Source: Castanea sativa
Lineage: Eukaryota > Streptophyta > Magnoliopsida > Fagales > Fagaceae
Reading direction: 5' to 3'
Length of the DNA stretch: 64,000 nucleotides
Assembly (NCBI RefSeq): GCF_040712315.1
Contig: NC_134014.1
Location: 41,157,634-41,221,633 of the forward strand
The notes below the pieces were generated by a model that did not search any database, was not told the DNA's origin, and worked only from the letters and a program-made list of their open reading frames with translations. This document shows, piece by piece, positions 991 to 50,460 of this stretch; positions within the stretch are counted from its first letter, which is position 1, and each line of letters starts with the position of its first letter. A program made the position numbers and the translations under genes.

Positions 991-1060
991 TTTGAGAGTT
1001 GTAATTTATAAGCCCGTAAACATTCATAATTTAGACCACGAACGACAAAAGTACCTTACA

Positions 1061-6388: not shown

Positions 6389-6418
6389 GGTGTTCGAGTT
6401 CTTTTCACACTAGATTCT

Positions 6419-23039: not shown

Positions 23040-23078
23040 CGCTCCCCTATGAACTTAAAGTTTTCTTTTCTTCTTCTT

Positions 23079-23110
<32 letters not shown>

Positions 23111-23700: not shown

Positions 23701-23707
23701 TTGGGAT

Positions 23708-24062
23708 CGTCCATTTTGTGGATTTTAGGTGTAAGATTGTCCACTTTGTGGATTTATTTATGACGCCGTCCACTTTGTGGACTTGGATGTAGGCCGTCCA
23801 CTTTGTGGACTTGGATGTAGGCCGTCCACTTTGTGGACTTAGATGTAGGCCGTCCACTTTGTGGACTTATAAGCAGGTCGTCCACTTTGTGGACTTATAA
23901 GCAGGTCGTCCACTTTGTGGACTTGGATGTAGGCCGTCCACTTTGTGGACTTATAAGCAGGTCGTCCACTTTGTGGACTTATAAGCAGGTCGTCCACTTT
24001 GTGGACTTGGATGTAGGCCGTCCACTTTGTGGACTTATAAGCAGATCGTCCACTTTGTGGAC
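23708..24062. repeat. 28-bp palindromic tandem array of Tat-B
   Basis: GTCCACTTTGTGGAC, a perfect inverted repeat with a 3-base loop, recurs every 28 bases at 23768, 23796, 23824 and so on to 24048 (11 units). Two imperfect units precede it at 23708 and 23739. The 13-base linkers are of two kinds, and from 23852 they follow a b-b-a pattern that gives an 84-bp higher-order period. The apparent open frames across it are an effect of the 84-base period, not genes. Confidence 0.95.
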
Positions 24063-24295
24063 TTGGATGTAGAGGACCTGTTGTTTTCTTCAAGACATAA
24101 AAAATTCATTAGTCGTTTCTGAATGAACCTCCTCTTATTATGATGAATGCATAAGTAAAATTTTGTTCAAAAATAGGAAAGATAAGTTTTCAGCCCTTTG
24201 GACTTAAAATAAACTGTAGACAAGAATAAGCTAAGACAAATAATTAAGGATCCTAAACTGGCAATGAGGAGTAACGTTCTGCTTGCTATCTTCTA

Positions 24296-27200
24296 CTAGT
24301 AGTATTTTCTGAGGTGCTCGGCGTTCCATGGGTGTCGCAGCTTCTGCCCGTCGAGAGTCTCTAGGTGATAGGTGCCCTTTCTTCGCCATGATATGATCTT
24401 GTAGGGTCTTTCCTAGTTCGGGCCGAGCTTTCCTTGTGTAGGATCTCTGGCTGTGCCCATTACTTTCCTTAAAACAAGGTCTCCGACTTTGAAGTCTCGG
24501 TGCTTGACTTGGGAGTTGTAGTGCTTGCTTACGAGGTCCTGGTATCGCGCGAGTCTCTCGCTCGCCCACCGCCCTTACTTCGTCAATTAGATCCAGCTTG
24601 TAAACGAAGCTCTTGATCATTTCTTCCCTCGTCGTGATTGGCCACCCTATAACTTGGAGTCCTATCTCGGCCGGAATGACCGCTTCATTTCCGTATGTCA
24701 CTGGAAAGGGGTTTCTCCCGTAGGGTTCGCACCGTTGTTCCGTATGCCCACAACACGCCGGGTAGCATCTCGGGCCATACGCCCTTCGCCCCCTCGAGCC
24801 GAGTCTTGATGATTCGAAGCAAGGATCGGTTGGTGACTTCTACTTGTCCGTTTGCCCTCGAGGATGGGCCGGGGAGGAATAATGGTTCTTGATTCCTAAC
24901 TCGAAGAAGGCTCGAAAAGAGTCGTTGTCAAATTGTTTACCGTTGTCCGAGATTAAGACTCTTGGAATTCCATACCTGCAAACAATGTTTCTCCATACAA
25001 AACCCCGTATGTTCTTTTCAGTAATTGTGGCGAGGGCCTCAGCTTCAACCCATGTGGTGAAGTAATCGATGCCGACGACGAGGAACTTCAGCTGCCTTGC
25101 TGCCATCGGGAATGGCCCCATGATGTCCAACCCCCATTGGGCGAATGGCCACGGGGCAGTTATGGGGGTCAATTCTTCCGCCGGTTGTCGAATGATGTTG
25201 CTGAACCTTTGACACTTGTCGCAAGCTCTCACATAAACCTGGGCGTCATTTTGCATTGTTGGCCAATAGTATCCGGCCCGAATCAACTTTTGTACCAATG
25301 ACCGTGACCCGGAATGGTTGCCGCATATCCCCTCGTGTACTTTTCTCATAATATAGCTTGCTTCTTCGGGGTCCACGTACCTTAGGTATGGTCGAGAAAA
25401 GCCCCTTTTGTAGAGGACGCCCTTTATCAAGACAAACCGTGCAGACCGGACCTTCAGCTTCCTAGTAGCCTCCTTTTCGTCAGGCAACGTGCCATCTTTT
25501 AGGTAGGAGATCAAGGGTGTGTCGGAACCAATTTCCTGTATGCAGACAACGTCAATTAACGGTGAGGACTGAATGAAAGAAAGTACCTTGTCGATGGGGG
25601 TCATAGTTTCCGCAGATGCAGCTTTGGAAAGTCGGTCGGCATGTTCGTTTTCTCCTCTTAGAATTTGGACTATTTTGGCTTGCAGCCCGTCCATCCTCCT
25701 TTTTGCTTGCTCCCAGTACCTCTTCATTCTTTCACCCTTGCACTCGTACTCGCCGTTTACCTGGCTTGTGACGACTTGGGAGTCGCAATGAACAACCACA
25801 TTCGTGGCCCCTACAACTTGAGCAAGGTCCAAACCTGCTATCAGGGCTTCATACTCAGCTTCATTGTTAGTTGTAGGAAAGTCGAGGCGAATCATGCATT
25901 TGAGCTCGTCGCCTTCCGGAGAGTTAAGCACGACCCCTACCCCGCCAGCCCTTCTTGTTGGATGACCCGTCGTTGAAAATGTCCCATTGGGGATTCTTCT
26001 CCTCTTCGCCTTCCGGCCGGTGAACTCGCCGATGAAGTCGGCTACGCTTGTCCCTTGATGGCGACGCGGGGCGATATTGTATATCAAATTCACTTAGTTC
26101 TACTCGGACCATAACGCCATTCGTCCGGCAGCCGGGGGCTGCCCATTGCGCGCCGCAAAGGTTTGTCGGTTAGAACGACTATTGTATGGGCTTGAAAATA
26201 TGGCTTGAGCTTACGGGCCGCCGTAACCAAAGCGAAGGCAAGTTTCTCCATGGGGGGATACCTCTCTTCTCGCACCGTGCAATGCCTTGCTCGCGTAGTA
26301 CACGGGTCGTTGGACCTTATCGTCTTCTCTAATTAAGGCCGCGCCGACGGCCATCGGGGAAACGGCCGGATAGAGGAACGCTTCTTCTCCCGTTTGCGAG
26401 GGGCTTAGCAATGGCGGGAAGAGAGGTAGACCTTTAAATCTTCGAACGCTTGTTGACACTCGGCGGTCCATTCAAAGGATTTTTTCAATGTTCGAAAAAA
26501 AGGTAGACATCTATCTCGCGGCCTTCGACACAAATCGCTAAGCGCGGCGACCCTACCATTGAGGCTTTGTACTTCCTTGATATTTTTAGGAGGGGCCATC
26601 CCCATAATGGCCCGAATCTTGTCCGGGTTGGCCTCGATCCCTCTTTGGGATACCATGTACCCCAAGAACTTTCCCCGCCGTCACTCCAAAGGCACACTTG
26701 TTTGGGTTGAGCTTCATGTTGTAGGAGCGAAGAGTATCAAATGTTTCCTTAAGATCCTCTAGATGAGCTTCTTCCTCTTGGCTTTTGACTAGCATGTCGT
26801 CGACATACACCTGGACGTTCCTTCCAATCTGTCGTGCAAACATTTTGTTCATGAGCCTCTGATAGGTTGCGCCAGCGTTTATGCCGGGCGGGCATGACCC
26901 GTAGCAAAAAAGGCCTTGGCTTGTTACGAATGAAGTCTTCTCCTCGATCGACCCTCATCCATTCGGATCCGGTTATACCGTGAGAATGCATCCATGAAGC
27001 TTAGCAACTGATGTTTGGCTGTAGAATCCACCAGGACGTCGACCCGCGGGAGGGGGTAGCTATCTTTGGGGCATGCTTTGTTTAAGTCCGTGAAGTTGAC
27101 GCACATCCTCCATTTCCCGTTGTTCTTTTTGACCATTACGACGTTCGCCAACCAATCGGGGTAATATACTTCCCTAATAAATCCCGCTTCTTGCAGTTTG

Positions 27201-29501
27201 CGGACTTCTTCTGCTATTGCTTGGTCTCTTTCTTGGGCAAAGGTTCTTTTCTTCTGTCGGACGGGCGGAAAAGATGGCGACACGTTCAACCTGTGCACCA
27301 TGACCGACGGGTCGATTCCCGGCATGTCTTCGTGGCTCCATGCGAATACATCTTTGTTTTCTTTCAAGAAAGTTGCGATTTTCTGACGTACCGCCGGGTC
27401 GGCCAGGGTTCCGACTTTTGTCGTTTGCTTCGGGTGGGCTTCGTCGAGATGTACGTCTTCAAGCCTCTCGACGGGCTTTGTCGCCACCCGACGTTCTCCT
27501 ATGTTCATGGCTTGAATGTGATTGTCCATCTCCATCATGGCCACGTAACATTCTCGCGCGGATACCGATTTCCTCTCAATTCTCCAATTCCATGATCGCA
27601 GGGAATTTTATCATCAAATGGTATGTCGAGGTTACGGCTCTCCAGCGAGTTGAGGGTCGGGACGTCCTATGATGGCATTGTAAGCCGACGAGCAATCGAC
27701 TACCGTGAATGTTACGTTCCGGTGACTGCGTGGGTAGTCTCCAACGGTTACCGCTAAAGTGACAGCCAAGTGGATGTACCCTCGCCCCTCCAAAGCCAAT
27801 GAGTGGGGCATTAACCGGAGTTAGTCGCTCCCTTTCAATTCGCATCCGTTGGAAAGCGGGATAGTAAAGGATGTCTGCTGAACTACCGTTGTCTACGAGA
27901 ACTCGGTGTATGTTGTAGTCTCCCGCCTGTATGGTGACGACCAAAGTGTCGTCATGGGGGTGGTGAAGGCGCTGGGCATCTACTTCCGAGAATTCAATGG
28001 GGGGATTTCCAATCCGTGACCTTCCAAGCGCAGGACTTGCCGATTGGACGTTCTGGACCGTTCTGATGTATGTCTTTCGGGCTTTCTTCGAAGATCTGGC
28101 CCTTGTGGTGCCTCCTACAATCATCCTTATGTCTCCTACGGGTTGCCTGGGGCGATCATTATCTCGCCGAGGGGCTTGATTTTGTGGCGGGTCTGCCCTC
28201 TCTTTGTTGACAAACCTCTATAACCTCCCTTGCCTAATGAGAGCTTCTATTTGCTGTTTCAGGTCGTAGCAATCGGCGGTGTCATGGCCGTGGTCTTGAT
28301 GAAATCGGCAGTACTTATCCCTTGGCCTCCTGTTGGGATCTCCCTTCAGCTTTCCAGGAAAGGCCAAAGTTTCCTCGTCTTTAATCTGCATCAACACCTG
28401 GTCGATGGGCGCATTCAGGGGAGTGAAGTTCGTGTACCTTCCTGTAGGCGGCTTGGGTCGTCGATCATCTCGTCCCTCTCTCGGTTCTCCCCTTTTTCGT
28501 CCATTATCGGGTTTCGTATCTTCCCGTCTCTCCCTTTTTCTCGGGTTTATGGTCGTCTTCGTGCCAAGGCATCCTCCGCGTTCATATACTTCGTCGCCCC
28601 CCGTAGTATACGTCGGACATAGTCTTCGGGTCATTCTTGCATAGAGAGAACAAGAACTTACCCTCTTGTAGCCCGTTCGTGAATGCCGCCACAAGTATCT
28701 TGTCGTCTCGCGTCGTCTATCGAGAGGGATTCCTTGTTAAAGCGGCTATATAGGACCTTAACGTCTCGTCTTCTCGCCGCTTAATGCCCGCATACACGCA
28801 ATAGACCTCTTGTGTCGATGACTTCCAATAAAGTGTGACACGAACTGTGCGCCCAGTTCCTTAAAGGTGCTGATAGAATTAGGCGTCAGCTTGGTGTACC
28901 AATCCCTCGTAGGCCCCTTCAAGGTGGTAAGAAAAGCCCTGCACATGATTTCATCCGGTACCCCCTGAAGATGCATCAGGGTTCTAAAAGACTCCAGGTG
29001 GTCCAACGGGTCTTTGGATCCGTCGTAATTTTCAACATGGGGCATGCGAAACTTCGGAGGAACGGGGCATGAATTCACCAACGCTGTGAAAGGCGAATCC
29101 GTTCTATGAACTAGGTCGTCCAGATTGCTGGATACCCGTCCTCTGAGGGCGTTCATCATCACATCCATGCGTTCCCTCATCTCCTGCATCTCAGCCGTGA
29201 TATGAGGTGGTAGGGAGTCCGAGGCAGATGGCGGGTTTGTCTCCGGCCGCTCCAGCCTTGTTGGTGCGGTGCTACCTTCAGGCCTGGCGGCATTCCTCCC
29301 TTCTGGGCTTGCTACTTCCTGGTCCTCCCCTGGTGCACTTTGGTGTGCGGTCACCTGCCGTAGTTGCTCTTCTAAGTCGTGATTCTGTTTAGTAAGGCGC
29401 TCGACGGCAGCAGCCAGCATCTGGACTTGCCTTTCTAGCGCTGTAGCATGCGGTTCGTCGCCTTGGTTGTTGATTGTTGCCATCGATCGAGTGAGTACCA
29501 T
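24296..29501 (-). pseudogene. Tat-B gag-pol pseudogene
   Basis: The start is ATG 29501 (MVLTRSMATINN) and the end is TAG 24296-24298 after HLRKYY. Gag spans 29501-28218, with the knuckle CRFHQDHGHDTADCYDLK. Protease has VDNGSSADIL near 27880. Reverse transcriptase (27544-26500) keeps YVDD. RNase H lies at 26050-25580. Integrase (25350-24300) has HEGICGNHSG and CDKC zinc ligands and the core ISDNGKQF. The frame changes after Gag, between protease and reverse transcriptase, within reverse transcriptase and inside the integrase core near 24850, so the product is broken. The LTR promoter would drive it. The family resemblance to Tat-A/C is clear but distant. Confidence 0.93.
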
Positions 29502-29548
29502 ACAACTTTTTGTCTCAGGAATAGAGCAAGGCTGAATGTCTAGCTTCC

Positions 29549-29564
29549 CACAGACGGCGCCAAC
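29549..29564 (-). other. Primer-binding site of Tat-B
   Basis: Minus-strand GTTGGCGCCGTCTGTG abuts the 5' LTR. It is the same core as in Tat-C. Confidence 0.85.
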
Positions 29565-30331
29565 TGATGATGCCTAAGAAATCACCAGTAAGCTGCTAGT
29601 ACTCCACCGATTGAAGCAACACCTGCGAAGAAAAAGTAGGTGATCGACAGAGAGCACCGGTGTGGTGCCGGCCAAAGACCCTCCGACGATCAAGTTAGAA
29701 TCTTTAAACAACCCTAGAGTGCCAGAGTTGAGGTAATTGTGCGTACCTTTTGTCATGAGGGTTTTTGGGGTTTATATAGTGGTGTAGAGCCGAAATAAAC
29801 GCCTTGGCGAGGAAGTACTTTCCTTTTAGAAGAGCAATTCGCGGATCTTTGCATATCGTATAGAGCTCTTTTCCTTATATGGATCCTTTTGACTAAGACC
29901 AAACGTGTAGCGAAAGAACTTTCCTTATATTCACGTATGTAGAAGTCAAGATAGATTAAGAATGGAGGTTGGATTACCCCTTCAGCCTTTTTTCTGCCTA
30001 GGTCGTCAACCAATATGCACCTCCTACACTGCCGCTAGCCTAGGTCGTCAACCAAAGTGCACCTCCTACACTGCCGTCAGCCTAGGTACATCTCCAAAGA
30101 TGCCGCCAGCTAAGGACCTTCTCACCTTGGCCGTCAGTCTTCGCTATCTTGATTCCTTTAGCCTAACGTCACCACGTAAGGGGTGTGGCCTCGAACGTTA
30201 AAAGAGGTGTCAACGACAATAGCTGACGGATAGTATATTTCCGTCAGCTTATTAACGTGCAGTCAGTATGTAATAAGTATAATTCCGTCAACTTCTTAAC
30301 GTACCGTCAGCATAAAATAACGTCACTATCA
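29565..30331 (-). repeat. 5' LTR of Tat-B
   Basis: This 767-bp LTR pairs with 19583-20348. The minus-strand TATATAAA near 29771-29778 is the probable promoter of gag-pol. Confidence 0.95.
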
Positions 30332-30645
30332 CACAACATCAAATTAAAAGCTTACAGAAATATATATACGTCACATATTACCAAAGAAATTCAATTTCGT
30401 GTAGAAAACGAAAGAAAAATTCATTCTTCTTCTTGAAATAAAACCTCTATAGTTCTTCTACCTAAATCTTCATTCATACAATCAATAAAGCTGGAATTTG
30501 AAATTGGAATCTTGGAATTCCTCATAGCCTGTCTTATTGGAACAAATTGGAATCTTCATTTATAAGAAACATATTCAGACACAGTGTTCAAAATTCAAAT
30601 TTCAATTAATTAAATGAATTCTTCAAGGTTTGAAATTGAAATCTC
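30332..30645. other. Non-coding spacer
   Basis: AT-rich and unique in this window. It is the right flank of Tat-B and so possibly the continuation of the old ACA-copy intron; similarity to intron 1 at 60720 is too weak to say. Confidence 0.5.
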
Positions 30646-30842
30646 GGGGGTTGGCCGAGTGGTTGGACACTCGATCTTAAAGTGGTTGTCTTGGGTTTGA
30701 CTAGGAGCTCCCTAGTTCAAGTCCGGGCAACAGCAGGCCAGTCATTTACACCGCTATGGGCCCACTTGTTGCGAATAGTGATTAGTTTCTGGTTAAAAAC
30801 TTTGAGGAAACACTGTTGGAAACCAAAAAAAAAAAAAAATTT
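30646..30842 (+). mobile_element. tRNA-derived SINE
   Basis: The head has an A box (TTGGCCGAGTGGTTGG) and a B box (AGTTCAAGTCCGG) as in a leucine-type tRNA, and the tail is poly(A) (30825-30839). AAATCTC flanks both sides (30639-30645, 30843-30849). It is too degenerate and long to be a tRNA gene. Confidence 0.85.
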
Positions 30843-30995
30843 AAATCTCTAACAGCCATACACACGCAGGCCAATAGTGTATGTTTGGTACGCACAAAAA
30901 ATTGGGTCAACAGAAATTATTTAACATGTTGACTGTAAAATAACCCTTCCCACCCGTAAAATCATTTCCATTCTCATTTTACCTTCAAATCTCAT

Positions 30996-32126
30996 TGTGG
31001 ACGACTAAATTTCTTGGTTCGAAATAAATCAAACAAGTAAAATAGTTTCACAAATGCGAATTTGTATTGATGAATGTGTGGTACAATTCTCCGTGATTAC
31101 AAAAGAGTGATCTTTTGATTCGATCTCCTTGAAAGATTTGTTGATTGGAATTGTGGTAATGTGATTTTGATTCGAATACCGAATATACTTCAGTTTAGCT
31201 AAAGAATGGATCGAAGATCCTTGAAACAGAATTACAATGAATCTCTGGCTATGAGCTTGTTAGAAATCCTTTATTATTCACGTTCTTTGTGTTCTTTGTG
31301 TGTTCTTTGTCTTCGAAGATTTGTGGTGGAAGTTCTTTGGGGCTTTAGAGGCTTGAATCCGTAGAGCTTCATTGATTTGTGGTTTGTGAGGTTTCTGGAG
31401 GCTTTTGAGCTTGATTCCAGTGAACTTTGAGATCTAGGAATATGATTTGGATGATTCCTCTTCGATTGTTCTTCGTATTTGAAGGTTTGTGGTGGAAGTT
31501 CTTTGGGGTTTTGGAGGCTTGAATCCGTAGAACTTTGCCAATTTGTGGTTTGTTGAGGTTTCTGGAGGCTTTTGAGTTTGATCCCAGTGAACTTTAAGAT
31601 CTAGACAAGTAGTTTGGATGATTCTGCTTCGAATGTTCTTCATATTCAAGGTTAAAGTTCTTGAAGTTCCTGGAGGCTTCAGGGCTTTCTTTCGGCAGAG
31701 CTTCTGTACTTCTGAGTGCTTCTGAATCTTCTCTGATGCTGCTTGTGGTCTAGATGGCTTGGTGTCTCTTTAAATGTCTTAGGAAGGCTTCTATTTATAG
31801 GAGTTTGGGGGTGGGTGAGCAACACGTGGCGGAGTCTGATTGGTGACACATGTCACAGCCTGATTGGTCCACTTATGTCATCGCTTACACGTACTGGATT
31901 GCTTATGTCATTGCTTACACGTGCAGGGTTGCTTATGTCATCGCTTACACATGCTGATGCGTTTTATGCCCCTATTTCAATGACACTTGGCAAGTTTCTA
32001 TTGGTTTTTGAATAGTGATAGCAAAACCTAGTAGTAGTACATGGCGCTTTGTAATTGGTCGTATTTTGTGGACTTGATAATACGATGTGTCAGCTCGTGA
32101 TAGGTTGGGAATTTTCCCTCTCTACA
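30996..32126 (-). repeat. 3' LTR of the gag-only element
   Basis: 1,131 bp. A minus-strand TATAAATA box lies at 31792-31799. An internal direct repeat is visible: about 120 bp around 31460-31600 resembles 31310-31440 (TTTGTGGTGGAAGTTCTTTG in both). Confidence 0.95.
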
Positions 32127-35107
32127 AATGCACCCTCGAAACTCGTTCATGCACATAGTTTTTGGAGTGTGGTGAGTGAATAAGTCTTGATAATGGAATT
32201 TTATACTTAACTCTTCAAGTGAAGTAGTTGAAGGTGGTGGAGCTTTTAGCAGGATGAAGTAATTTCAGAAGAGTAAACCCACCCATATGAAAGGCTTTGA
32301 TGAGACTGAAAAGGGGTCTGCGAGTATTTGAATGTACTTGCATGACCGAGCCTTCCCAACAGAGGTTAAGTTGAAGTAATTTCAAAAGAGTGTTCCATGG
32401 TACTTGGAGTGGATTGGTGAGGCTGAAAGTTATTTGCAAGAAGTTGGATGTACTTGCAAGATTGAATCATTTCAACATAGGTTAAGCTGGAGTAATTTCA
32501 GAGGAATATTTTGGATCATTGGCGGCGATCACAGGGTGTAGAAGATGGAGAAGAAGTGAGAATGTTGGCTGGGTACAGCATGTAAAGCTATGGGGCTAGC
32601 CTCCTGTTTTTAAGAACTTCTGGTGAAGTTATATCTAAAGGATATACTTCGAATCACGGAGAGAACATGTGGGAAAGTGGCTGAATGTGCATGTGTTATT
32701 GTATCACTCAGGTTTAGTTGAGGTAATTTCAGAAGCTTTTGGATTCTAGGTCTGTTGGTGGTGGTTGTGAAGAAGATGGTGACGGAGCAAAGTGAATGGG
32801 TGAAACATATGCCATCATGGCGCTGGCCTTGTACGTTGGGGACCTTCTGGTGTAGATGTTTCTAGGAAGTACACCTTGGGATGTGGGACTGACTGCATGC
32901 TGAATGAGGTTTAACAGCAAGTTGTTGAATGCGCCTGTGTAACTGGACCATGCTGACGGACATTAAGTTGAAGTAATTTCAGAAGTATATTTTCTGGAAT
33001 TCTTCAAGCTGATCTTAAGTTGGAGTAATTCCAGAAAGTGTGTTTTGAGGTACCAACAATGATGACCTTTGGGCCCCACGTTGGTGGGAACACGGAATGA
33101 GGCTTTGGTGACCATTTACCAACACCAAAGGCTAATTTCTGGTGAGCTGGTACCTTGGAGGTCATCGTAAGTGTTGGATGGGAGACAATTTGTAGGATAC
33201 CCCAACACCTTTCACCACCTTCACCTAATGCCACTCGTTGGAAAAGCACAAAAAAAATGAAAGGTGGAGCCAACTTGTGATCCTGGTTTTAGAAACCAGC
33301 CAAGTTGCTGTTTGTTCCGAACCGCTGCTTCTGATGGGAGACCAAGCAATTGGAGAGAGACTACGGCGAGGACGTGTGGGAAACAAAATTTTTTTGGATC
33401 TTAAAACAACGATGATGTTGTGAGAAGGGTTTCTACTGAACCATGAGAGGGTTGATTTCAAACTGATTATGAAGCGATTTTGGTTGCTAGGTTTTGAGAA
33501 TGATGAGGCCATAGTGAGAAATGGCTGTGAGAAGGAGGATTTGAAAATTTGAAAGACGTAAATCTTCATTTCATGATTCAGTGTGTTTTTCTTGGTGAGT
33601 TTTCGATGGATCCGACCCTTCTATTTATAGCGGAGAGATGAAGAACGGTAGTTGAGAATGGCGGATGAGAATTTTTGGTGAGAATGGTGGATGAGAATGG
33701 TAGGCGCCGAATGGAAATGGTAGGTGACTCAATGTAATTTCAATTTTAAGACATACTTGTGAGAGTTCATCTGTTCTTTGAAAGGGGAGCCTTGATGAAG
33801 TCTGGAGGATAACTCTGAGGGAACCCAAACTAAGTGGATGAATCTCCAATTTTGATTTTGGGAGCTTGAGTTTTGGACACTGCTAGTACTTCGCAGAAGT
33901 GGGTCAGATTGGTGGTTTCCAAGTTCAAAACAAACAAGCTGATTTCAAAAACAGAGTTTTTGTGAAAATCTGAGTAGGACAAGCTTTGCTCAAGCATCTT
34001 GACTTTTGGTCAAAGTTCACACCAAAGCCAATAGCTGTAGAATCACACTACTTGAGCAATTTTGGATTCTCAAATGAATAAATAGACCCCAAAATTGGAA
34101 CGTACGAGCAAAATTGGGCAAGATAGGTCATTCTTGAAAATTTTGACTTTTGGTAAAGATTTGTGCAAAAGTCAACTTTCTAGAAATTGAACCGTTGTGC
34201 AATTTCTGAGTCTCAGTTGAAGAAACAGATCCCAAAATTGGAATGTACAAGAAAAACAGAGTGGGAAAGGCCCGTTTTGAAAATTTTGACTTTTTGGTCA
34301 AAGTCAAAGGTCAAAATTGGTCAAAACATTTTTTTTTTCAAGCAGTCCAGATCCGGGTTAGATTTCTAGGTTGGTCCAGGTCAAACCAGTTAGTGGAGGA
34401 TGACATCATAGGGGTGCGTGTAAGCACGTGAAGATGCTGGAGGGCCTGTCGACATGTGGTGCGTGTATGCGGGTGAGAGAGGAGCTAGCGCATGTGAGCA
34501 CATAGCGGAAGGAGTTGTGCGTGTTGCTGAAGGCAGCCACCGCCGAATCTTTTAGCGGTGTGTAGAGGCGCGTGCTTCGCTTTTTAGGCTTGAAATTTTC
34601 AGGTTTTGTAGTTCTAAGGTCATAGAAGACCCCTGTAGGGTCAGTTTTGTGAAATTGTGAACAGATTTGCAGAGTTTTGAGGGATTAAGCCATTGGTCAT
34701 TGCGAGTTTGTGGCGGCGCGTGGAGACGTGTGGTAGCTCCGTTGTTGATGATCTTTCTGGGTTTTGTGAACTGTGGACCGATGGATATTGTGGTGGCATT
34801 GGTTTTGTAAAAAATTTTCTTAGATTTGTGCAGATTTGAATGAGAAATCTGCGGGTCGTTGGGAATTTGTGGCCACACGTGGCCGCGCATTATGGCTCCA
34901 CCGTGGACGTCTTTTTTGAGTCTTGTTGTTTGAAATCCTTAGAAGATCTTTGTGGGTTGATTTTTTGACATCTTGTCAGAAGTTTTAGAAATCCAGAAGA
35001 GGAGTCAGCATGCATTGTTGAATTTGTTGCCATCTTAGTTTCCTCTATGCTTTTGACATAGTTTGACATCTCAGGATTTCAAGGTCGGTAGCACAGTCAG
35101 TTTGAAC
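32127..35107. other. Non-coding interior of the gag-only element
   Basis: No convincing gene on either strand; the open frames are short and unlike known proteins. The word AAGTAATTTCAGAAG recurs with small changes near 32255, 32371, 32476, 32711, 32963 and 33017. Its minus-strand 3' end next to the LTR is where a polypurine tract should be, but only CGAGGGTGCATT is seen. Confidence 0.6.
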
Positions 35108-35293
35108 AATGAATAATGCTAGAGATACAAATAATTTTACAAACTGCTAATGTGGTGAGTAATTATTGGTAAATGAAAAAATGATATTGATGGTAGGTCT
35201 AGATACAAACCAACAAGAGGTTGATCACATCAATATTTTGTAAAAAAAAATGTTGTAAAATAATTTGTGGCGATAGCATTACTCTTGAATAAT
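35108..35293. mobile_element. MITE upstream of the PMD promoter
   Basis: Its ends pair as AATGCTAGAGATACAAA at left and AATGCTATCGCCACAAA read from the right; TGAATAAT occurs on both flanks. This fits an hAT-type MITE. It lies about 155 bases upstream of the PMD gene TATA box. Confidence 0.7.
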
Positions 35294-35447
35294 ATGCGGA
35301 CTAGAACTTCATCCCAAGTCTAGTGCAATAAATTCTTTCTGACAACGTGATCTTCTGGGGGTAGTTAGCACAGTATTCTTTGAAAGTATGGTACTTTGCC
35401 TTTCCACAGCTCTTTTTCTTTTTATCTGTTAGTTTCCAAAGACTCCT

Positions 35448-35455
35448 ATATAAAG
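35448..35455 (+). promoter_or_regulatory. TATA box of the PMD gene
   Basis: CTATATAAAG lies on the plus strand 66 bases before a 5'-UTR intron donor. It is placed correctly for a transcript starting near 35480. Confidence 0.7.
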
Positions 35456-35514
35456 CCACCCGGGGCCATGCATTATGTTGCACAAGTGTAACCTTTAGTA
35501 ACTAACATATTATT

Positions 35515-35604
35515 GTAAGTGCAAAGAAACCACGTCTTTTCACCTTCTTTTTCTTTTCTTTTTCTTTTTAACTTGTACTAACTCTACTCTTTTTTTTTTG
35601 GTAG
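35515..35604 (+). other. 5'-UTR intron of the PMD gene
   Basis: Donor ATT|GTAAGTGC, a long pyrimidine tract, acceptor TTTGGTAG|CAACTT, 90 bases. The ATG follows 17 bases later. Confidence 0.65.
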
Positions 35605-35620
35605 CAACTTGCTTCTTGAT

Positions 35621-38525
35621 ATGGTGTACTTCAGAGATATTTCCTCGTCTAACAAGAAGTATCTTGTTATTTCAAAAGATCAAGGTGATGCAACTGAGAA
35701 AGGATTATCACTGCTCGTTAGGAAACCCATTATTGGTCGATTTTCACCAGTATGGCCGAAACAGAATGATCTTGGTGACATTGTTAAGTGGACGTCTGGC
35801 ACTTCTCAAAATTCAGGTTCTCCTTCTAGAGCATGGTCCCTATGTACTTCCCTCCACAAGAATACCACCGAGTCAGGCCCTTTAAGGACTCTTGGCTGTC
35901 ACATTATTTCCGGCAAAACACGTTAGGGCACAATTTTCAGAACAAATGGCGAGTTTGGTTATACACCCTACTATTGGGAATGGCTTGAAGATGTCCTCTT
36001 TTGTAGCAAGAAGACTCTTATCAAGGCCCAGATCTTTGAAGCAGTCCCTGCATCTTTATACACATATGATCGAAACAATGACATCATACGTGCATTTTGT
36101 GAAGCATGGTGCCCGAACACCAATACCCTTCATACCCCGTTGTGTGAGATGTCCATCTCTCTTTGGGACTTACATCGTCTAGGTGGGCTTGCCATCACTG
36201 GTAGTTTTTACAATGAAGTTGTCCCTTGTTATAAGGAAATGGTAGGGTGTGATGAGAAAGGCAGATTCATTCCAAAGAGTTGTGAATATCTGTTCGCCGC
36301 TTTTTATCAACTTCATAATGAGAAAGAAGGGAAGATACATGTTTTGGTAAATGACTGGATCAAATTTTGGTTTTGAGGAGACCCAAAATACATGAAGCCA
36401 CCTCCTTGAAGGCCAAAGAGGTCGTGTCGTCCTAAGCAGACTTACAATCCTGACGGTTCGTTTGGCAAGGCCTGTGCATGGTCTTCAAAAGAGAAAGGTG
36501 CATTTACAGACCTTGAAGTTCAAGAAGGACTATGTGAAGAAACTCACTTGGTTGCATTGTTATCTTGTTGGCTATGCATATTGGTGCTACCGAGTGAAGA
36601 TCTTAATGTTATCCATCCAGGAACATTCAAGGTTGTGAGCCTTATGGCTATTGGTAGGCCTTTCAGTCTTGCCATACCTATTCTTACTAGCCTTCATCAA
36701 GGATTAAATAAGCTTGCCCGTTCTCCTGTTGTTGGTAGTTCAAAGGCGTGCCTTCCCATGCACTATATTTATGGGTGGCTAGGCCACTACTTTGATACCC
36801 ATCATGGAGTTACATTGGAAGTCGTCGGGCCAAAGATGGTTAGATTTTCTGGTGCAAGAGGGGCCAGATATTATGACGAATATGAAGCCCGAAGGTTGAT
36901 TCAAGGCAACCACATGTTGTGGGGTGCCAATTTGCTTGTTAAGAATGCGAATGAAACTTTTGAAGACAGTGGAAACCTTTCTTGTACTTCACTGGCGCAC
37001 TTTATTAGTATTCGATCATCTTACTTGTCTATGCGACAAATTGATCATTTCATCATAGAACCCTACAGCCCTTGCCGATTCAGTCGTCAATTTGGACTTT
37101 GTCAAAGCATTATAGGTGGTATAAAGAAAGACATCCGTCATGCTTCTTTGGATGAAGTCTTAGAACTTTGGAGATTATGCACCAAGTCTAAGACCATATT
37201 GCAAGCATTCTTCCCAGCTCCTCCATCAAACTTAAAGCACCACACTACTCAAAGTTATGAGCATTGGTGGAGTAGCACGCATGGGACATACCTTGAAGAT
37301 GGTATAGCATCTTTGATTTCAAGCACATGTTCTCCTTTACCAAGAACGAAGATGGGCCAAATAAACCATGATAAGAATGACAATGGAGGGGGTATTCAAT
37401 TGTCTAACGATCACGTTACATGTGTTGTCCAAAAATTTGTGATTGACAAGGCTCAATTTGTAAAGCCACAAGACGTCACAGCAAGACCGGAGATGCCTCC
37501 CCTTAAAGCTTTTCTTGTTGAAGGGCCTCTAGGAGTGTGCATGGCATCTAATGAAAAGATGGACTCATATCTTGAGAAAGTGAGTGAGAGTAGTGACAAG
37601 GAGTGTCATTGGAGGCTGGCTAAGAAAAAGCTTAAATTGATAATCCCTAGCGAACCCGATTTCGTTGAAGGGACCTCCTATGCCCTTGAACATGTTGAAG
37701 TTGCTGCAGATCAAGTATTTTTCCACTATCTTTTTTTTTAGTCTTTATATACGTACATTTTTCGATGTAACGTATTCTTGATTGCAGCCTAGGCAACAAG
37801 CCTTAAACACAATCAATAGTGATGAGGTGACCTCTATTGATAGTGAAACTTCAATTTCTGGTCCACGACCTATTGCCATATTAGTGGGAAATGTAACTCA
37901 GATGCCTAGCATTGAATTTATGGAGAGGACTGTGAGTTTTGATATCCCTGAAGATTTTGTTTATCATGCCGAAGATGTGATTCTAAGAAATCGCATCGAT
38001 CTTGCATTGAACCTTTGGAAAAGTCTTTAGCAAAGGATTGCTAGGACCGCTTTCGAGAAAGCCCCTTCACTCATGGGAGAAGCTCAAAAGATTTTCGATG
38101 CCATAGTAGCCAATAAAGCTATTGATCCATCACCATTGCAAAGCTTAGTTGCTGATTATTTTGAGAAGGCCAGAAGTTTTGAATCACTTCAATCCTCCTT
38201 TTCTACGAGCGTGATGTCTGGACAACGTGACAAGCAATCGACAGATTGTAACTTTCACCTTGCTGAGCAGCCAACTATAAAGAATGAACTGTTAGCATGT
38301 GGTGAAACACTTAGGGATGGACTGGCGAGTGTTGAAGCCAGGATAGTGGAGTTGCAAGAAGAACTGGAACATCTATCCAATTGCAAGAAAGATCTTGAAG
38401 CTTCGATTCTTAATAATGATGAAAATTTGTCAAATCAAAGCTCTATCATCTCGAACATTCAAGATGAGATTTCTTTCATAGAGACTGGTCCTTCCATAAG
38501 TAATGCAAACATTGAATCTTTGTAG
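35621..38525 (+). pseudogene. Plant mobile domain (PMD, aminotransferase-like) gene inside the retrotransposon
   Basis: Two coding exons (35621-37714 and 37788-38525) join in phase 0 over a 73-base GT-AG intron, giving a 943-codon frame. The PMD core is clear: TLIKAQIFEAVPASLYTYDR, AFCEAWCPNTNTLHTPLCEM, SISLWDLHRLGG, then NDWIKFWF, SCWLCILVLPSED and YIYGWLGHYFDTHHG. The C-terminus (exon 2) is a predicted coiled coil (RIVELQEELEHLSNCKKDLE). PMD proteins such as MAIN and MAIL1 of Arabidopsis act in silencing and genome stability, and PMDs also occur in transposons; what this one does is unknown. Four in-frame stops (TAG 35924, TGA 36374, TGA 36407, TAG 38028) and no frameshift make it a recent pseudogene. 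It lies antisense and tail-to-tail to gag. Confidence 0.9.
37715..37787 (+). other. Coding intron of the PMD gene
   Basis: GATCAA|GTATTTTTCC to CTTGATTGCAG|CCTAGG, 73 bases, T-rich, with stop codons in frame. Removing it restores one open frame up to the next nonsense mutation. Its presence shows that this strand was transcribed and spliced as a gene and did not enter as a cDNA. Confidence 0.8.
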
Positions 38526-38670
38526 TTGTTGAGCCAATGGCTAGAGACAACACGTGATGAGTTAGAGAATTACAACTGGAAATACTGACTTGTACTTGCA
38601 ATCAATAATCATTGTAGCATCTCCCTTTTGTTTTCTTTGTTGTAGAAATTTCATGTCTTTCTTTTCAGTT

Positions 38671-38676
38671 AATAAA
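38671..38676 (+). terminator. Polyadenylation signal of the PMD gene
   Basis: AATAAA in TTAATAAAATTAG, 146 bases after the stop codon, in a T/A-rich 3' region. Confidence 0.6.
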
Positions 38677-38824
38677 ATTAGTTCTCTTTGCATCACTCGT
38701 TTATCTAATTTCTCCACCATTGCCTTCACTTTTTTTTTTTTGCATGTGACTGAACTCAGTAAATAATACTAAGTTGCCTACGTACCTTGTTAAGGGATCA
38801 AGTCATCATGTAGTTCAAAAAGAT

Positions 38825-39001
38825 TTTTTTGTTTTGTTTTGTTTTTGTAAAAAGGAGGGCTCATGTGTGTAATCCTCGCCTCACGCCCCACGGAATTTCA
38901 TGGGTACCAATTGCGCAATAGTGGGTATTACCACTAATTGAACCCAAGACCTCAGCCTCAAGGGCAACAATGGCATCCAGCCACTACGCCACACTCGCAA
39001 A
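38825..39001 (-). mobile_element. SINE-like insert between PMD and gag 3' ends
   Basis: On the minus strand it has a tRNA-like A box (TGGCGTAGTGGCTGG), a B-box-like GGTCTTGGGTTCAATTAG and an A-rich tail (T-rich at 38825-38850 on plus). Target duplications are not clear. Confidence 0.55.
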
Positions 39002-39128
39002 TGGTGGCATAGAGTGGGATTGATTTCTCCTTATTTGTACGCTTTCAAAGGTAATGGGAAGACATCATGTACCTTTGTAGCGCTGCAGTGGGTAGTTTAA
39101 GCTCTTACCGAGGAGTAGTCCTCGATTT

Positions 39129-40889
39129 TCAAGCATATAAGTGTTTGAGTAACTTTCCATTGATAGGGCCGATCCTTACACCATCCTGATCAATCAACTT
39201 GTAAGCTCCATTGGTGTTTGCCCCCTGCCTGAGAGTTGGAAGTACATCACAAGTAACAGTTACATGGTTTGACCCGACAACTTCATCAAGGTCTAGATCA
39301 ATCTTGTTTTCTTTGGCAAGTTTCATGATTTGTTCTTTGAAAATGAAACATTTTTGGATTGGGTGGCCGATGATGCGATGATATTTGCAGTTGTTAGGGT
39401 CATCAACTTTCCCCATGTCTTCTGGTCGCTTGCGTTCTGGCAATTCAATCAGCTTTAATTGCAATAGTTGTTCTAAGATGTTTGGCACATCTTCATTAGG
39501 GAACGAATATGCTTTTTGCTCACGTTCCTTAAAAGTCAGATGATGCACTTCGTTCTTTTGCCATCCTTCAAGTTGTTTTTCATTTGCCTTTGCTCCTTTC
39601 CTTGGAACCTTAACTATGACAGTGTTAACAGTTATTGGGTCTTTGAGATTACTTTTTGCATTCTTGTCATTCCTCCTTACTTCCTTTCTACTTTCCTCAG
39701 GTATGTGAGATTTTGTATTTCCGTGGCTAGAGATACTTAATAAAATGTCGTGCGCACGAGTTGCCAATTTTTCGAATGTTCGGGGCTTTATCCCTTGCAG
39801 GATGTACAGAAGTCCCCAGTGCACGCCTTGGATGCACATTTCTACAGCAGATATTTCAGAAAGTCTATTCTTATAGTCTAGACTCAAAGAACGCCACCAA
39901 TTGATATAGTCAACAACGGGCTCGTCTTTCCACTGCTTAGTATTGGTAAGCTCCATCATGCTTACCGTGCGGCGTGTGCTATAGAATCAGTTAAGGAACC
40001 CCTTTTCAAGCTGTTCCCAACTATCGATTGACTCAGGTTCTAAGTCTGTATACCAATCAAAGACATTCCTCTTTAGTGAACTGACAAACTGCTTTACAAA
40101 GAGGCCTCCTTGAGTCCCTGCATTCTCACAAGTTTCTACAAAGCGAGCAATGTGTTGCTTAGGGTTTCCTTTGCCATAAAATTGCAAGAACTTGGGGGGT
40201 TGATACCCATTTGGCATTCTCATGTTGTCTATGCGCTTTATGTAGGGTCTTGAATATGTGAGAGAACTTGTAGAAGAACCTCCATATTGTGCTCGGATGG
40301 TATTTATTATCATGTCTTGTAATTGTTGGACTGACAACGAAGCCACTGAAGCATATTGTTCTTGTCGGGGAGTGTTTTCAATTTCTCTCCCTTTGTCATC
40401 CTTTGCAGATGTGAATTTATGATCATGGCTTGATTCACCAAGATCTTGTACTTCGAGTTTGTTCATTAAAGTTGCAATTTGGAGGTCCTTATCTTCAACT
40501 ACTTTTGTGAGAGGGACAACCCTTTGTTCCATTTCAGCCATCTTTTCTTCCATGGTAGAGGTGTTAGTCATCATGACTGACACAACTTCCACAGATGATG
40601 GAGAAGAAATTGATTTGAAGTGAGCGCGTGAAATCTCATCTTTTGGGTTCCCTTTGATGGGAGAGAAATTGTGCGACCAACTTCTTGTGAAGGAAGAAGG
40701 GGATTTGCCCCCATACTTAAGGTGTTCCAAGGTGGAGATGTCCTTGTTGATGACCTTGTTTCTTGTGAAAGAGTCTAAGGAGATGATTTTCTGGACCTTG
40801 GCTTCCTTGGTTGATTGAGATTGAAGTTGATTATGAGCTTTAGGTTGGCTACAATTGATTGCACCAATGCAGTTGTTGGTGGTAGCCAT
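39129..40889 (-). pseudogene. Gag gene of the gag-only element
   Basis: A 587-codon frame starts at ATG 40889 (MATTNNC); an upstream in-frame extension reaches 41042 over the PBS and is less likely to be the start. It has a coiled-coil N-part (MEEKMAEMEQRVVPLTKVVE), the retrotransposon gag domain (PPKFLQFYGKGNPKQHIARF; FDWYTDLEPESIDSWEQLEK) and a knuckle-like C-terminus (CKYHRIIGHPIQKCFIFK). One TGA near 39993 interrupts it where LN*FYSTRRTVSMM suggests an Arg codon (CGA). Gag would form the particle; packaging and copying would need another element. Neither protease nor polymerase follows. Confidence 0.9.
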
Positions 40890-40903
40890 ACCAAGTTTAA
40901 TTG

Positions 40904-41647
40904 ACGTAGCTATTGTTGAAGCTTGAATGTTCTTGCTAGAGGCCACTGAAGTTGGTAGCAAGATGATGAAATTTCTTTCTTTGAAGGAGAATGTGATGAG
41001 AGGCAGAGAGGTCCCACCGGGCGTCCCAAAATTTGTGGACAACTAAATTTCTTGGTTCGAAATAAATCAAACAAGTAAAATAGTTTCACAAATGCGAATT
41101 TGTATTGATGAATGTGTGGTACAATTCTCTGTGATTACAAAAGAGTGATCCTTTGATTTGATCTCCTTGAAAGATTTGTTGATTGGAGTTGTGGTAATGT
41201 GATTTTGATTCGAACATCGAATATACTTCAATTTAGTTGAAGAATGGATCGAAGATCCTTGAAACATAATTATAATGAATCTTTGGCTATGAGCTTGTTA
41301 GAAATCCTTTATTCTTCACGTTCTTCGTGTTCTTTATGTGTTCTTCGTCTTCGAAAATTTGTGGTGGAAGTTCTTCGGGGCTTTAGAGGCTTGAATCCGT
41401 AAAGCTTCACTGATTTGTGGTTTGTGAGGTTTCTAGAGGCTTTTGAGCTTGATTCCAGTGAACTTTAAGATTTAGACAAGTAATTTGGATGATTCTGCTT
41501 CGAATGTTCTTCAATTTACGTAGCTATTGTTGAAGCTTGAATGTTCTTGCTAGAGGCCATTGAAGTTGGTAGCAAGATGATGAAATTTCTTTCTTTGAAG
41601 GAGAATGTGATGATAGGCCGAGAGGTCCCACCGGGCGTCCCAAAATT
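40904..41647 (-). repeat. 614-bp tandem duplication of leader, PBS and LTR edge
   Basis: The sequence starting ACGTAGCTATTGTTGAAGC at 40904 recurs at 41518. The first copy includes leader (40904-41033), PBS (41011-41031) and a 484-bp LTR piece (41034-41517); the second includes leader, PBS (41625-41645) and the full LTR. The offset between LTR edges (41034 and 41648) is 614 bases. The element RNA would therefore carry two primer-binding sites. Confidence 0.9.
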
Positions 41648-42778
41648 TGTGGACGACTAAACTTCTTGGTTCGAAATAAATCAAACAAGTAAAATAGTTT
41701 CACAAATGCGAATTTGTATTGATGAATGTGTGGTACAATTCTCTGTGATTACAAAAAAGTGATCCTTTGATTTGATCTCCTTGAAAGATTTGTTGATTGA
41801 AATTGTGGTAATGTGATTTTGATTCGAACATCGAATATACTTCAATTTAGTTGAAGAATGGATCGAAGATCCTTGAAATAGAATTACAATGAATCTCTGG
41901 CTATGAGCTTGTTAGAAATCCTTTATTCTTCACATTCTTCGTGTTCTTTGTGTGTTCTTCGTCTTTGAAAATTTGTGGTGGAAGTTCTTCGGGGCTTTAG
42001 AGGCTTAAATTCGTAAAGCTTCACTGGTTTGTGGTTTGTGAGGTTTCTAGAGGCTTTTGAGCTTGATTCCAGTGAATTTTGAGATCTAGGAATATGATTT
42101 GGATGATTCCTCTTCGATTGTTCTTCGTATTTGAAGGTTTGTGGTGGAAGTTCTTCGGGGCTTTGGAGTCTTGAATCCGTAGAGCTTCGCCAATTTATGG
42201 TTTGTTGAGGTTTCTAAAGGCTTTTGAGCTTGATTCCAGTGAACTTTAAGATTTAGACAAGTAATTTGGATGATTCTGCTTTGAATGTTCTTCGTATTCA
42301 AGTTTGAAATTCTTAAAGTTCCTAGAGGCTTCAGGGCTTGATTGTGGCAGAGCTTCTGTACTTCTGAGTGCTTCTGAATCTTCTCTGATGCTGCTTGTGC
42401 TCTAGATGGCTTGGTGTCTCTTTAAATGTCTTTGGAAGGCTTCTATTTATAGGAGTTTGGGGGTGGGTGAGCAACACGTGGCGGAGTCTGATTGGTGACA
42501 CATGTCATAGCCTGATTGGTCCACTTATGTCATCACTTACACGTACTGCATTGCTTGTGTCATTGCTTACACGTGCAGGGCTGCTTATGTCATCGCTTAC
42601 ACATGTTGATGCTTTTTATGCCCTTATTTCAATGACACTTGGCAAGTTTCTATTGGTTTCTGAATAGTGATAGCAAAACCTAGCAGTAATACGTGGCGCT
42701 TTGTAATTGGTCGTATTTTGTGGACTTGATAATATGATGTGTCAGCTTGTGATAGGTCGGGAATTTTACCTCTCTACA
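41648..42778 (-). repeat. 5' LTR of the gag-only element
   Basis: 1,131 bp, paired with 30996-32126. The minus-strand TATAAATA lies at 42444-42451 and would drive gag. Confidence 0.95.
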
Positions 42779-42798
42779 CTCATTTTTCAAACTGAAAA

Positions 42799-44213: not shown

Positions 44214-44276
<63 letters not shown>
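44212..44276. repeat. (ATT)n microsatellite, Tat-C target
   Basis: About 21 units before Tat-C and about 9 after it (55383-55409) form one tract in the empty Helitron. Confidence 0.95.
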
Positions 44277-44277
<1 letters not shown>

Positions 44278-45027
44278 GTGGGGAGTAAAAAGACCCTGAT
44301 GGAGATGTAGGCCTTTGGGCCGTGCTAAGGAAGGCCGACCTGCTCTTGGGTTTAGAACTTGTTAGTACTACGGGTCGGCCCATACGCCGAGGATCCGAGG
44401 ATCCAGCCGAGGGTGAATTTCTCTTCGGACGGACACCGGAGAACCCGGGACTTCATGATAAATGTTAGGGAATGACATGGTCAAAACCAATGGTTAAAAG
44501 GGGGAAACCCTTGAATGTCCTAGAAGCATCGATGTTAGAGAAATACCAAGGATAAAGGCTGTCACCTCCACATTAAAGACCCTGCACCTACCACCCTGGC
44601 CGCATTAATGGGGAAGTGACACCTGAACAGTGGAAGGGAAACTTCTGGTTACTATTCAAAGGCACTGAGAAAAGAAATATCTAGGCTAAGGGGGAATTGG
44701 GGCAACACGTGTACAAAGTATCAAAAAGAAGAGTATTTAAGGAGCAACCTAGAACTGAAAAAGGGGGACAGACTACTTTGTAATCTAAAAGGAAAAGAAA
44801 AAAGAGGAAGAGATAATCTAAGAACAACTCTTGGCTTACGTCCGAGGAGGTTAATTTACAATATTCTTTGTTGTTTTCATGTGTTTGCAATTTTTGGCTT
44901 GTCATTTAATCCTTAAACACTTCTAACCTGGGTTTCAAGCCCACACTCTACAAATTCATATTGTTTAAGGCTCATTGGAGCTGAGCCGTGCTTGTTCTTG
45001 GGGCCGGGGTGCAATTGTGCACTTACA
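44277..45027 (+). repeat. 5' LTR of Tat-C
   Basis: TGTGGGGAG...CACTTACA, 751 bp. GAGTATTTAAGGAG near 44727 is the likely TATA region. Confidence 0.95.
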
Positions 45028-45044
45028 ATTGGCGCCGTCTGTGG
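45028..45044 (+). other. Primer-binding site of Tat-C
   Basis: ATTGGCGCCGTCTGTGG directly after the LTR, shared with Tat-A and Tat-B. Confidence 0.85.
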
Positions 45045-45073
45045 AAAATCTAGTCTAGAAGAGGCAGGGATAC

Positions 45074-48000
45074 TATGGCAGGCTTAGGTGCTCACCATGC
45101 TGAGTCACAGGGATCACAGCCGGAAGATCATTTTGAACGTCTTGAACATCGAAGGGATCGTGAGGGGAGTGTCCATACATAATACCCAGGTGCTAGCCAT
45201 ATTCATGAGGGGGGTAGCACCACCCACGATGAGGGTTCTAAATCCATGCGAAGGAAATCAACCGTTTAAAGAAAAGCTACGCCGCGCCAAGCGTAGGTTT
45301 TCACCGTCCTCGTCTAATTCCTCCTCGGAGGAGGATAGGGGAGGCGGCTACGGCTCAAGGGTCGCGCTCTCCCACCGGTGCAACATCTTCGGTGAGGAGG
45401 ACGACCGGCCAACTCGCGAACGTAAGAAGCCTCGTTCTAGGGGCTTAGGTAACGATGCTATGAGTAGGGCGTTGCACCGGCTCTCCAAATCTCCATTTGC
45501 ACGGAGGATTGAGAAAGGAAGGCTTCCCGAAGGTTTACCCATTTTCACCATCTATAATGGCCGGAGTGATCCGGTGGAGCATGTGAGTCACTTTAACCGG
45601 AGGATGGCGGTGCACTTTCTCACAACGAGACACGATGTGTAAAGTTTTCCCTCTAGCACAGGGACTGTTGCTATGAGGTGGTTCAACGGCCTTAAGTCGG
45701 GGTCTATAAGTTCGTTTGGGGAGCTTACTAGGGCATTCGCTTCACGGTTCATTACGTGTAGCAGAGTACCTCGGCCATTGGACTCGCTGTTATCCATGAC
45801 CATGAGGGAAGGGGAGACGTTGAAAGCATACTCCAATCGTTACTGGGAGATGTTTAATGAAATAGATGGCGACTTTGATGAGGTGGCGCTTAATACCTTT
45901 AAGGTAGGCCTCCCTACTATCACGACCTGAGAAAGTCTTTGACTAAAAAGCCTGTTCGCAGTGTACGTCGCCTCATGGACCGTATTGACGAGTATAAGAG
46001 AGTGGAGGAAGACCAACAGCAAGGAAAGGGAAATGAGAAGGTTATCCCGCAGGAGAGAAGGGATTTCGGGTCGGGACGAGATACCACAATAACGAGGCCG
46101 AGGAGAGATTACGTTGGACGATCCGCCTCGGTAGCACCTCGGGCCGTGAACCTTGTATTCGAGAACCGGTGCATCATTTCTTGGAGAAAGTTCGTAAGGA
46201 ACCCTTCTTTAAATGGCACGATAAGATGGCGGGAGACCTGCGAAGAGGAATCATAACCTCTTTTGCCGGTACCACCGGGATGTAGGCCACACTCACAGAA
46301 GCTGTCGGACCTGTGGAAGAACCATCTAGAGCGGCTTTCGTCGGTGAGGGAAAGTTAAGCGACACTTGTGTCGGCCCGGGCAGGTCAGTCAAGTTGGCTC
46401 AAACAACCAGAGGAACAATACATCTCGGCCAGCATTGGGAACAATTAATGTTATCTTCGTTGCCCCTGGTAGGACCGGCTCAGGTCCCACTAGGGTGATG
46501 GCGGTTTCCCATCCTCAGGCCGAGGATGTGGGTCGCAGGCCGAAGAGATTGAAGGGCACTTTGCCCGTCTTAGATTTCTCCGAGGAGGACAAGATGGGGA
46601 CTATCCAGCCCCATGACGATGCTCTTGTGGTCACCCTCAGAATAGGGAACTATGATGTGAGAAGGGTGATGATAGATCAGGGCAGTGGTGCAGATATCAT
46701 GTACCCTGATCTATTTAAGGGGTTAAGGTTGAAGGTGGAAGACCTTACTCCTTATGATTCGCCGCTTATAAGCTTTGAGGGGAGAGCCGTTGTGCCGAAG
46801 GAACAGATCCGTTTGCCCGTTCAATCCGGCTCAGAAACGGTTGAGGTGGACTTCATCGTGGTTGATGCGTACTCTCCATATACAGCCATCCTTGCCAGGC
46901 CTTGGCTGCATACGCTTGGAGCCGTCTCCTCTACCTTACATGTTAAAGTTAAATTCCCCTCGGGGGAATGTGTTGAGGAAATTCTCGGCAGCCAATCGGT
47001 AGCCAGGCAGTGCATATCGAGCCGTGCGCATCGGACGAAGCGAGTCTTCGGCTTTGATCACCAAAGACTTATAGCAGTTAACGGCTCCTGATTCATCTAG
47101 AATGGTGACAGGAGATGAGACACATTGCGAGGGGTTAGAGAAGTTTCCAGTAGCCGATGACCCAGAAAGATTCTTCCAAGTCGGTGTACTTTTGCCACAC
47201 TAAGAGAAGATGGAATTGTTAGAATTTCTGAAGGAAAATATTGATGTTTTTGCGTGGGATCCTTATGAAGCTCCAGGCGTCGATCCGAGCTTCATTTGTC
47301 ATCATTTAAATGTCAACCCAGCTATTGTTCCGAGAAGGCAACCACCTCGGCGCTCCTCCAGAGAACATTCGAAATTTGTGAAGGAAGAGGTGCTTAAACT
47401 CGAAAGAGGCTGGGGCTATCAAAGAAGTTTTCTACCCCGAGTGGTTGGCCCATCTGATTGTCGTTAAAAAGAAAAATGGAACGTGGAGGGTATGTGTGGA
47501 CTTCTTGATACGAACAAGGCTGTCCTAAAGATTCGTTCCCGATGCCACGTATTGATCAAGCTGGTGGATGCTGCTTGTCGGACATCCTCGGATGAGTTTT
47601 TGGACGCCTTCCGGGGTTATCACCGGATTCCACTTGGCATTAGAGGATCGGGAGAGAGTTGCCTTCATTACACCGACGGGGAATTATCATTATAAGGTCA
47701 TGCCATTCGGCTTGAAGAATGTTGGGGCTACCTATCAAAGGATGATGACCAGAATGTTCGAACAGCAAATGGGGAAAACCATTGAAGTATATGTTGACGA
47801 TATGGTGGTGAAAAGCAAAACAATACTTACACGTGAAAGATTTGGCCGACACTTTTCAGATATTAAGAAAGTACAAGTTGCGCCTCAACGCCTCAAAGTG
47901 TTCTTTCGGCGTGGGGTCTGGAAAGTTCTTGGGATACATGATTACTCATAGAGGCATAGAGGTCAATCCGGTGCGAGTCAAGGCTATTCGGGACTTGCTG

Positions 48001-50379: not shown

Positions 50380-50460
50380 TAAAATGTGCTTTTGTTAGTA
50401 AACATTTCAAAGTTATGAGTACCTCTGACGCATGAAGTTACTGTTCTTAAGAATCAAACA

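Follow-up and report, generated by a model that had tools for sequence, protein, structure and literature searches.

The question raised by this locus is how a retrotransposon came to hold a gag gene, no detectable pol and an antisense plant mobile domain (PMD) gene, and what the PMD gene does for its carrier. The element occupies positions 30996-42778, on the minus strand, of a 64-kb stretch of Castanea sativa DNA that was analysed as a whole and is called the window below. The explanation that we consider fairly probable is that it is an old, inactivated, non-autonomous Ty3/gypsy copy, that its PMD-bearing Tat/Ogre-type ancestor lost pol in frame, that gag and PMD were then amplified, and that the PMD protein acted against silencing.

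A single LTR retrotransposon is delimited by two 1131-bp LTRs on the minus strand, the 3′ LTR at 30996-32126 and the 5′ LTR at 41648-42778, which were aligned without gaps at 94.1% identity (56 transitions and 11 transversions, K2P 0.0625). Both are bounded by TG..CA, have the same orientation and are flanked by the target-site duplication CTCAT at 30991-30995 and 42779-42783, the combination by which LTR retrotransposons are defined. Plant substitution rates lie between 1.5e-9 and 1.3e-8 per site and year, and with these the LTR divergence corresponds to an insertion age of 2 to 21 million years; the element is an old, inactivated copy that has decayed since insertion. At the inner edge of the 5′ LTR, a 614-bp tandem duplication (units 40896-41509 and 41510-42123) has left an extra minus-strand copy of LTR end and leader at 41034-41647; its units are 95% alike, and its age is about that of the LTR split. 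The sequence immediately inside the LTR, at the position of the primer binding site, is AATTTTGGGACGCCCGGTGGGACC, and no tRNA genes were found within the 64-kb window. Among protein relatives with a named source, the closest were from Quercus suber and Castanea dentata. An A-tailed, tRNA-derived SINE-like sequence was seen by eye just outside the element at 30640-30840.

The gag frame (39129-40946, minus strand, about 605 codons) was matched to Retrotrans_gag at E 1.3e-8 (Pfam, its one in-frame stop read as X), and relative P0234 is an uninterrupted gag of 605 aa, 84% identical and carrying the same C-terminal tail. The region between the 3′ LTR and the candidate PMD promoter (32127-35440) is noncoding, a six-frame Pfam search of it having given nothing at E ≤ 0.1, and no pol domain was detected at that threshold either there or in the three minus frames of 38589-39128 and 35441-39128, while RVT_1, RNase H and rve were recovered by the same read-through method in the gypsy element at 1-7000. 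The first-pass annotation had described intact LTR borders with a CTCAT duplication, a gag gene and an absence of pol, and all of this was borne out. An element with only gag, or gag and protease, between its LTRs is a TR-GAG, the term in use for gag-only LTR elements (PMC6022998), and this one belongs there. Scans of viral contigs with gag, PMD and the gag alignment returned no relatives. One plant-type gag (P0043, 59% identical) is deposited under the name Salmonella enterica, probably because a bacterial assembly contains plant DNA.

The final 26 residues of gag, GAYKLIDQDGVRIGPINGKLLKHLYA (39132-39209, minus strand), resemble the terminus of plant gypsy pol, that is, the integrase tail. 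When a hand-written pol-end pattern was run over the six-frame translation of the window, two matches were obtained, the gag tail and the pol end of a gypsy element at 19583-30331. Compared with the latter pol end alone, the score of the gag end was reached in 41 of 5000 shuffles; when scores were summed over three pol ends of the window, 9 of 5000 shuffles of the tail came up to the summed score, and not one of 218 gag windows further upstream did. The same summed test on the tails of relatives P0003, P0008 and P0009 gave 57, 1 and 127 of 5000 shuffles, respectively. The gag search found 507 matches, and tails were sorted for the 120 listed, among which 28 (72-82% identical, 151-482 aa) include the complete tail, 37 run on for at least 30 residues with other sequence and 55 stop within 30 residues past the alignment end. 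P0053 (59% identical) and P0019 (67%) share sequence with the gag of the element up to ‘KQGA(D/N)T’, after which P0053 continues with ‘EEGWTMVTRRR’, like more distant gags. Because the gag tail resembles a pol end, pol appears to have been deleted and not replaced, and the simplest reading of these sequences would be one ancestral in-frame pol deletion followed by amplification.

The PMD gene lies on the plus strand, antisense to gag, and was matched to PF10536 at E 3.9e-24 (Pfam, stops read as X). Exon 1 (35621-37714, three in-frame stops) encodes the Pfam PMD at residues 138-551 and the predicted VANC21-like fold at residues 63-567; exon 2 (37788-38588, two in-frame stops) encodes a coiled-coil-like C-terminus, its frame end being taken from Q. 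suber models. Between them lies a phase 0 GT..AG coding intron (37715-37787), and Q. suber models P0124 and P0143 join their exons exactly there, with the same DQ|P junction. A candidate promoter, TATATAAA, was located at 35447-35454, a candidate 5′-UTR intron (GTAAGT..GGTAG) at 35515-35604 and a candidate poly(A) signal, AATAAA, at 38671-38676, all on the plus strand. Chance alone makes both outer motifs frequent, TATAWAW being present 52 times and AATAAA 65 times on the plus strand of the 64 kb, and since GTAAGT introns of comparable quality occur four times per strand in the window, the 5′-UTR intron is plausible but unproven. The first-pass annotation was thus right on the opposite-strand placement and on the coding intron; its TATA box, 5′-UTR intron and AATAAA exist as sequences, the two motifs being of a kind often met by chance, and its description of the gene as complete is not supported, with five in-frame stops in 964 codons of PMD and one more in gag. 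A MITE-like insert flanked by TTGAACAAT / TTGAATAAT occupies 35111-35284, some 160 bp upstream of the TATA motif of the PMD gene, and has inverted ends of 32 nt (81%); a tRNA-derived SINE-like sequence was noted by eye on the minus strand at 38850-39010, in the interval from the PMD 3′ end to gag.

The decay of the two frames was simulated from the present sequence, with half of the divergence between the LTRs and no CpG effect. For PMD, 2.8 new stops were expected (95% range 0-7) versus five observed, and for gag 1.9 (0-5) versus one; the remaining sense frames of the two PMD exons contain 43 and 101 stops. As the stop counts match simulated post-insertion decay, the element probably inserted with both frames open and decayed afterwards, although one or two stops may be older. 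None of six Q. suber PMD models at least about 68% identical over their longest piece spans the whole ORF, and in a tree of 26 PMD proteins, drawn from 112 matches plus the window protein and excluding MAIN/MAIL1, the window protein was placed with Q. suber P0122, P0124 and P0169. The PMD gene was also considered as a separate transposon and this was rejected: no inverted repeat of at least 14 nt brackets it (nine pairs within 34600-39300, none with arms outside both ends), and the only direct repeats enclosing it are the LTRs. Borders of its own, which would have spoken against the first-pass annotation, were therefore not found.

Ogre (Tat) elements are recognized by reverse transcriptase phylogeny, a second RNase H between RH and INT, and a tRNA-Arg primer binding site. 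Like Ogre (Tat Ty3/gypsy; Neumann et al. 2019, PMC6317226), the present element has a PF10536 ORF outside gag-pol and a long noncoding region, and a PMD extra ORF is recorded in 57% of Ogre elements in the accessible text of that source; the likeness covers the presence of the PMD ORF, not its orientation. Unlike Ogre, it has no pol and its gag is fused to a pol-like tail, so that its lineage is not placeable by reverse transcriptase. In partly accessible sources, PMD is the most frequent atypical domain (PMC9289625) and clades PMD-A1 and PMD-A2 are exclusive to Gypsy (PMC5418596, Ikeda et al. 2017). With TR-GAG (PMC6022998), the element shares gag as the only gag-pol domain between the LTRs, and it differs in its spliced antisense PMD gene, which the definition in the available part of that paper does not include. 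Retand (PMC11963269) also has an ORF in antisense, placed in the interval from pol to the 3′ LTR, as well as tandem repeats and some non-autonomous members, but the ORF is Transposase_28 and not PMD, and in the defective clusters described for it what is missing is gag, gag plus protease, or RNase H plus integrase, and not the whole of pol. The element is accordingly classed as a TR-GAG-type derivative of a PMD-bearing Tat/Ogre-type element, Ogre membership itself being assignable only with a reverse transcriptase. A gag-only element with a PMD gene was not found reported in the open literature, to which the search was confined.

PMD has been described as a domain of unknown function, host PMD proteins are described as silencing transposons, and gypsy elements are known to carry PMD genes (accessible text of PMC8616336 and PMC5418596). 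The predicted structure of the window PMD protein matched the fold of the VANC21 DNA-binding domain (9lnj) over about 310 residues at 5-6% identity; DNA-bound VANC21 was its sole clear fold match, which places the protein, as predicted, in the VANC21 fold. Among viral proteins, the best match to the PMD fold had E 1.7. When solved structures were searched with a PMD profile, most matches were coiled coils aligned to the C-terminal part, with VANC21 absent from the best 60 of 61, and neither DUF1985 nor DUF287 appeared among the top 25 by frequency, out of 84 Pfam families, in a scan of 55 PMD proteins. VANC21 of VANDAL21 (PMC5735166, PMC10398659; 9lnj) resembles the window protein in being encoded by a transposable element, in its predicted fold and possibly in motif repeats in noncoding DNA; it differs in belonging to a DNA transposon, in sequence and in motif, and anti-silencing has been demonstrated for it (PMC5735166, PMC10398659), whereas for the window PMD it is predicted from the modelled structure. 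The predicted match lends independent support to the link between PMD and silencing made in the first-pass annotation and, being to a DNA-bound VANC21, turns a guess at the job of PMD into a testable one.

That transposon PMD proteins counter silencing has been proposed before, for MULEs (PMC5418596) and in general (PMC8616336), in the accessible text of both without mechanism or structural evidence. No report of a fold shared by PMD and VANC was found in the open literature, the scope of the search excluding subscription papers and the VANC21 structure paper; the open papers found to mention both VANC and the plant mobile domain treat them apart and, in their accessible text, state no fold relation. 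This fold match is the surprising part of the analysis, and it opens the old question of PMD function to direct tests. On the structural model, the PMD protein would probably bind short repeated motifs in the noncoding DNA of its own element and thereby remove or block silencing. A wider proposal is put forward tentatively, as a possibility we hold to fall clearly short of even chances: that PMD is a VANC-type, sequence-specific DNA-binding fold; that Ogre-type retrotransposons carry it as a gene of their own against silencing, together with an array of its cognate motif in 3′ noncoding DNA; that gag-only derivatives kept both gene and sites as an escape from silencing which, unlike pol, could not be borrowed from diverged relatives; and that MAIN/MAIL1 represent the same fold turned to silencing. 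If the mechanism suggested by the fold match is right, one protein fold is used against silencing by two unrelated transposon classes, and a non-autonomous family retained its PMD gene after the replication enzymes were lost.

Candidate target sites were sought in the noncoding region adjoining the 3′ LTR, where six direct plus-strand copies of AGTAATTTCAGAAG (starts 32258, 32375, 32491, 32722, 32972 and 33024, spanning 32258-33037, 0-2 mismatches) are suggestive of binding sites. At up to two mismatches, these six same-strand sites were the only ones in the 64 kb; at up to three, 100 shuffles of the region gave a mean of 0.62 and a maximum of 3. Columns of the sites are 88% identical versus 31-39% in the flanks, the sites having been chosen by the motif itself. 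In an unbiased count of exact 9-mers, the top count was 6 against a shuffle mean of 3.05, but at least one of 200 shuffles also reached 6. For 14-mers with two mismatches, the count was 6 versus a maximum of 4 in 40 shuffles, and 2 of 17 other stretches of the window reached 6; for 11-mers with one mismatch, it was 6 versus a maximum of 5 in 40 shuffles, and 2 of 8 other stretches reached 6 or 7; for 20-mers, the count was 7, which was equalled or exceeded in 3 of 17 other stretches (AT-rich by eye). Of the known VANC motifs, that of VANC21 is present once in the element and twice in the window, and that of VANC6 twice and four times, raw counts with no sign of enrichment. With controls thus mixed, the array may be treated as a lead to PMD target sites.

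Taken stepwise, the history that we favour would begin with a PMD-bearing Tat/Ogre-type Ty3/gypsy element whose PMD gene lay antisense between pol and the 3′ LTR. An in-frame deletion would have taken out protease, reverse transcriptase, RNase H and integrase and fused gag with the final pol codons, leaving the antisense gene in place; the family may then have amplified with gag and PMD together in its copies, autonomous relatives supplying the enzymes in trans, while the VANC21-folded PMD protein would have bound motif repeats in its own noncoding DNA and removed or blocked silencing. The first-pass annotation instead saw a cargo system, with the PMD gene in place of pol; on this reading a gag-only carrier would have acquired a host PMD gene. 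A promoter-like motif, introns and a poly(A) signal belonging to the PMD gene would suit that view, but gypsy elements of the Ogre lineage are already known to carry PMD as an accessory ORF (PMC6317226 and PMC5418596, accessible text) and the gag tail indicates deletion of pol, not replacement, so that acquisition as cargo is considered very improbable. Still harder to credit is a composite, with PMD and gag derived from different nested elements or brought together by misassembly: small nested inserts do exist, yet a single LTR pair with matching target-site duplication encloses both genes, no repeats bracket the PMD gene, and accessory ORFs are known to occur in antisense in the interval from pol to the 3′ LTR (PMC7264820 and PMC11963269, accessible text).

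The family may also have spread through its LTRs and packaging signals alone, with gag and PMD as functionless leftovers. Stops in both genes, the lack of a complete model among the six close Q. suber PMD proteins and the existence of LARD and TRIM, non-autonomous elements without gag-pol domains (PMC6022998, accessible part), would fit; against this, the stop counts match ORFs open at insertion (one or two older stops being possible), the gag of P0234, 605 aa long and ending in the same tail, is uninterrupted, and 28 tail-bearing relatives at 72-82% identity were listed, although protein databases favour open frames. On balance, leftovers without function are possible but rather unlikely. For the role of PMD, binding to its own DNA competes with mimicry or blocking of host MAIN/MAIL1-PP7L and with regulation of the element by an antisense transcript. 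MAIN and MAIL1 are PMD proteins acting in transposon silencing, and antisense RNA control has been discussed for antisense ORFs (PMC7264820), each in partly accessible text (PMC5418596, PMC7156037 for the former). Their likeness to the window protein lies in the plant mobile domain, by description and not by sequence comparison, and they are host genes that promote silencing, unlike the element-borne PMD gene (accessible text of PMC5418596 and PMC7156037). As DNA-bound VANC21 was the only clear fold match and the PMD frame was seemingly open at insertion, these roles are judged distinctly unlikely, and anti-silencing through binding of the element's own DNA is preferred.

Further gypsy elements lie on either side. 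The one at 19583-30331, on the minus strand, has LTRs 97.8% alike and a broken gag-pol. Related copies at 1-6964 and 44274-55385, in opposite orientations, are 75% alike over 6.6 kb; the LTRs of the latter are 97.6% alike, and tandem repeats are present near the pol end in both.
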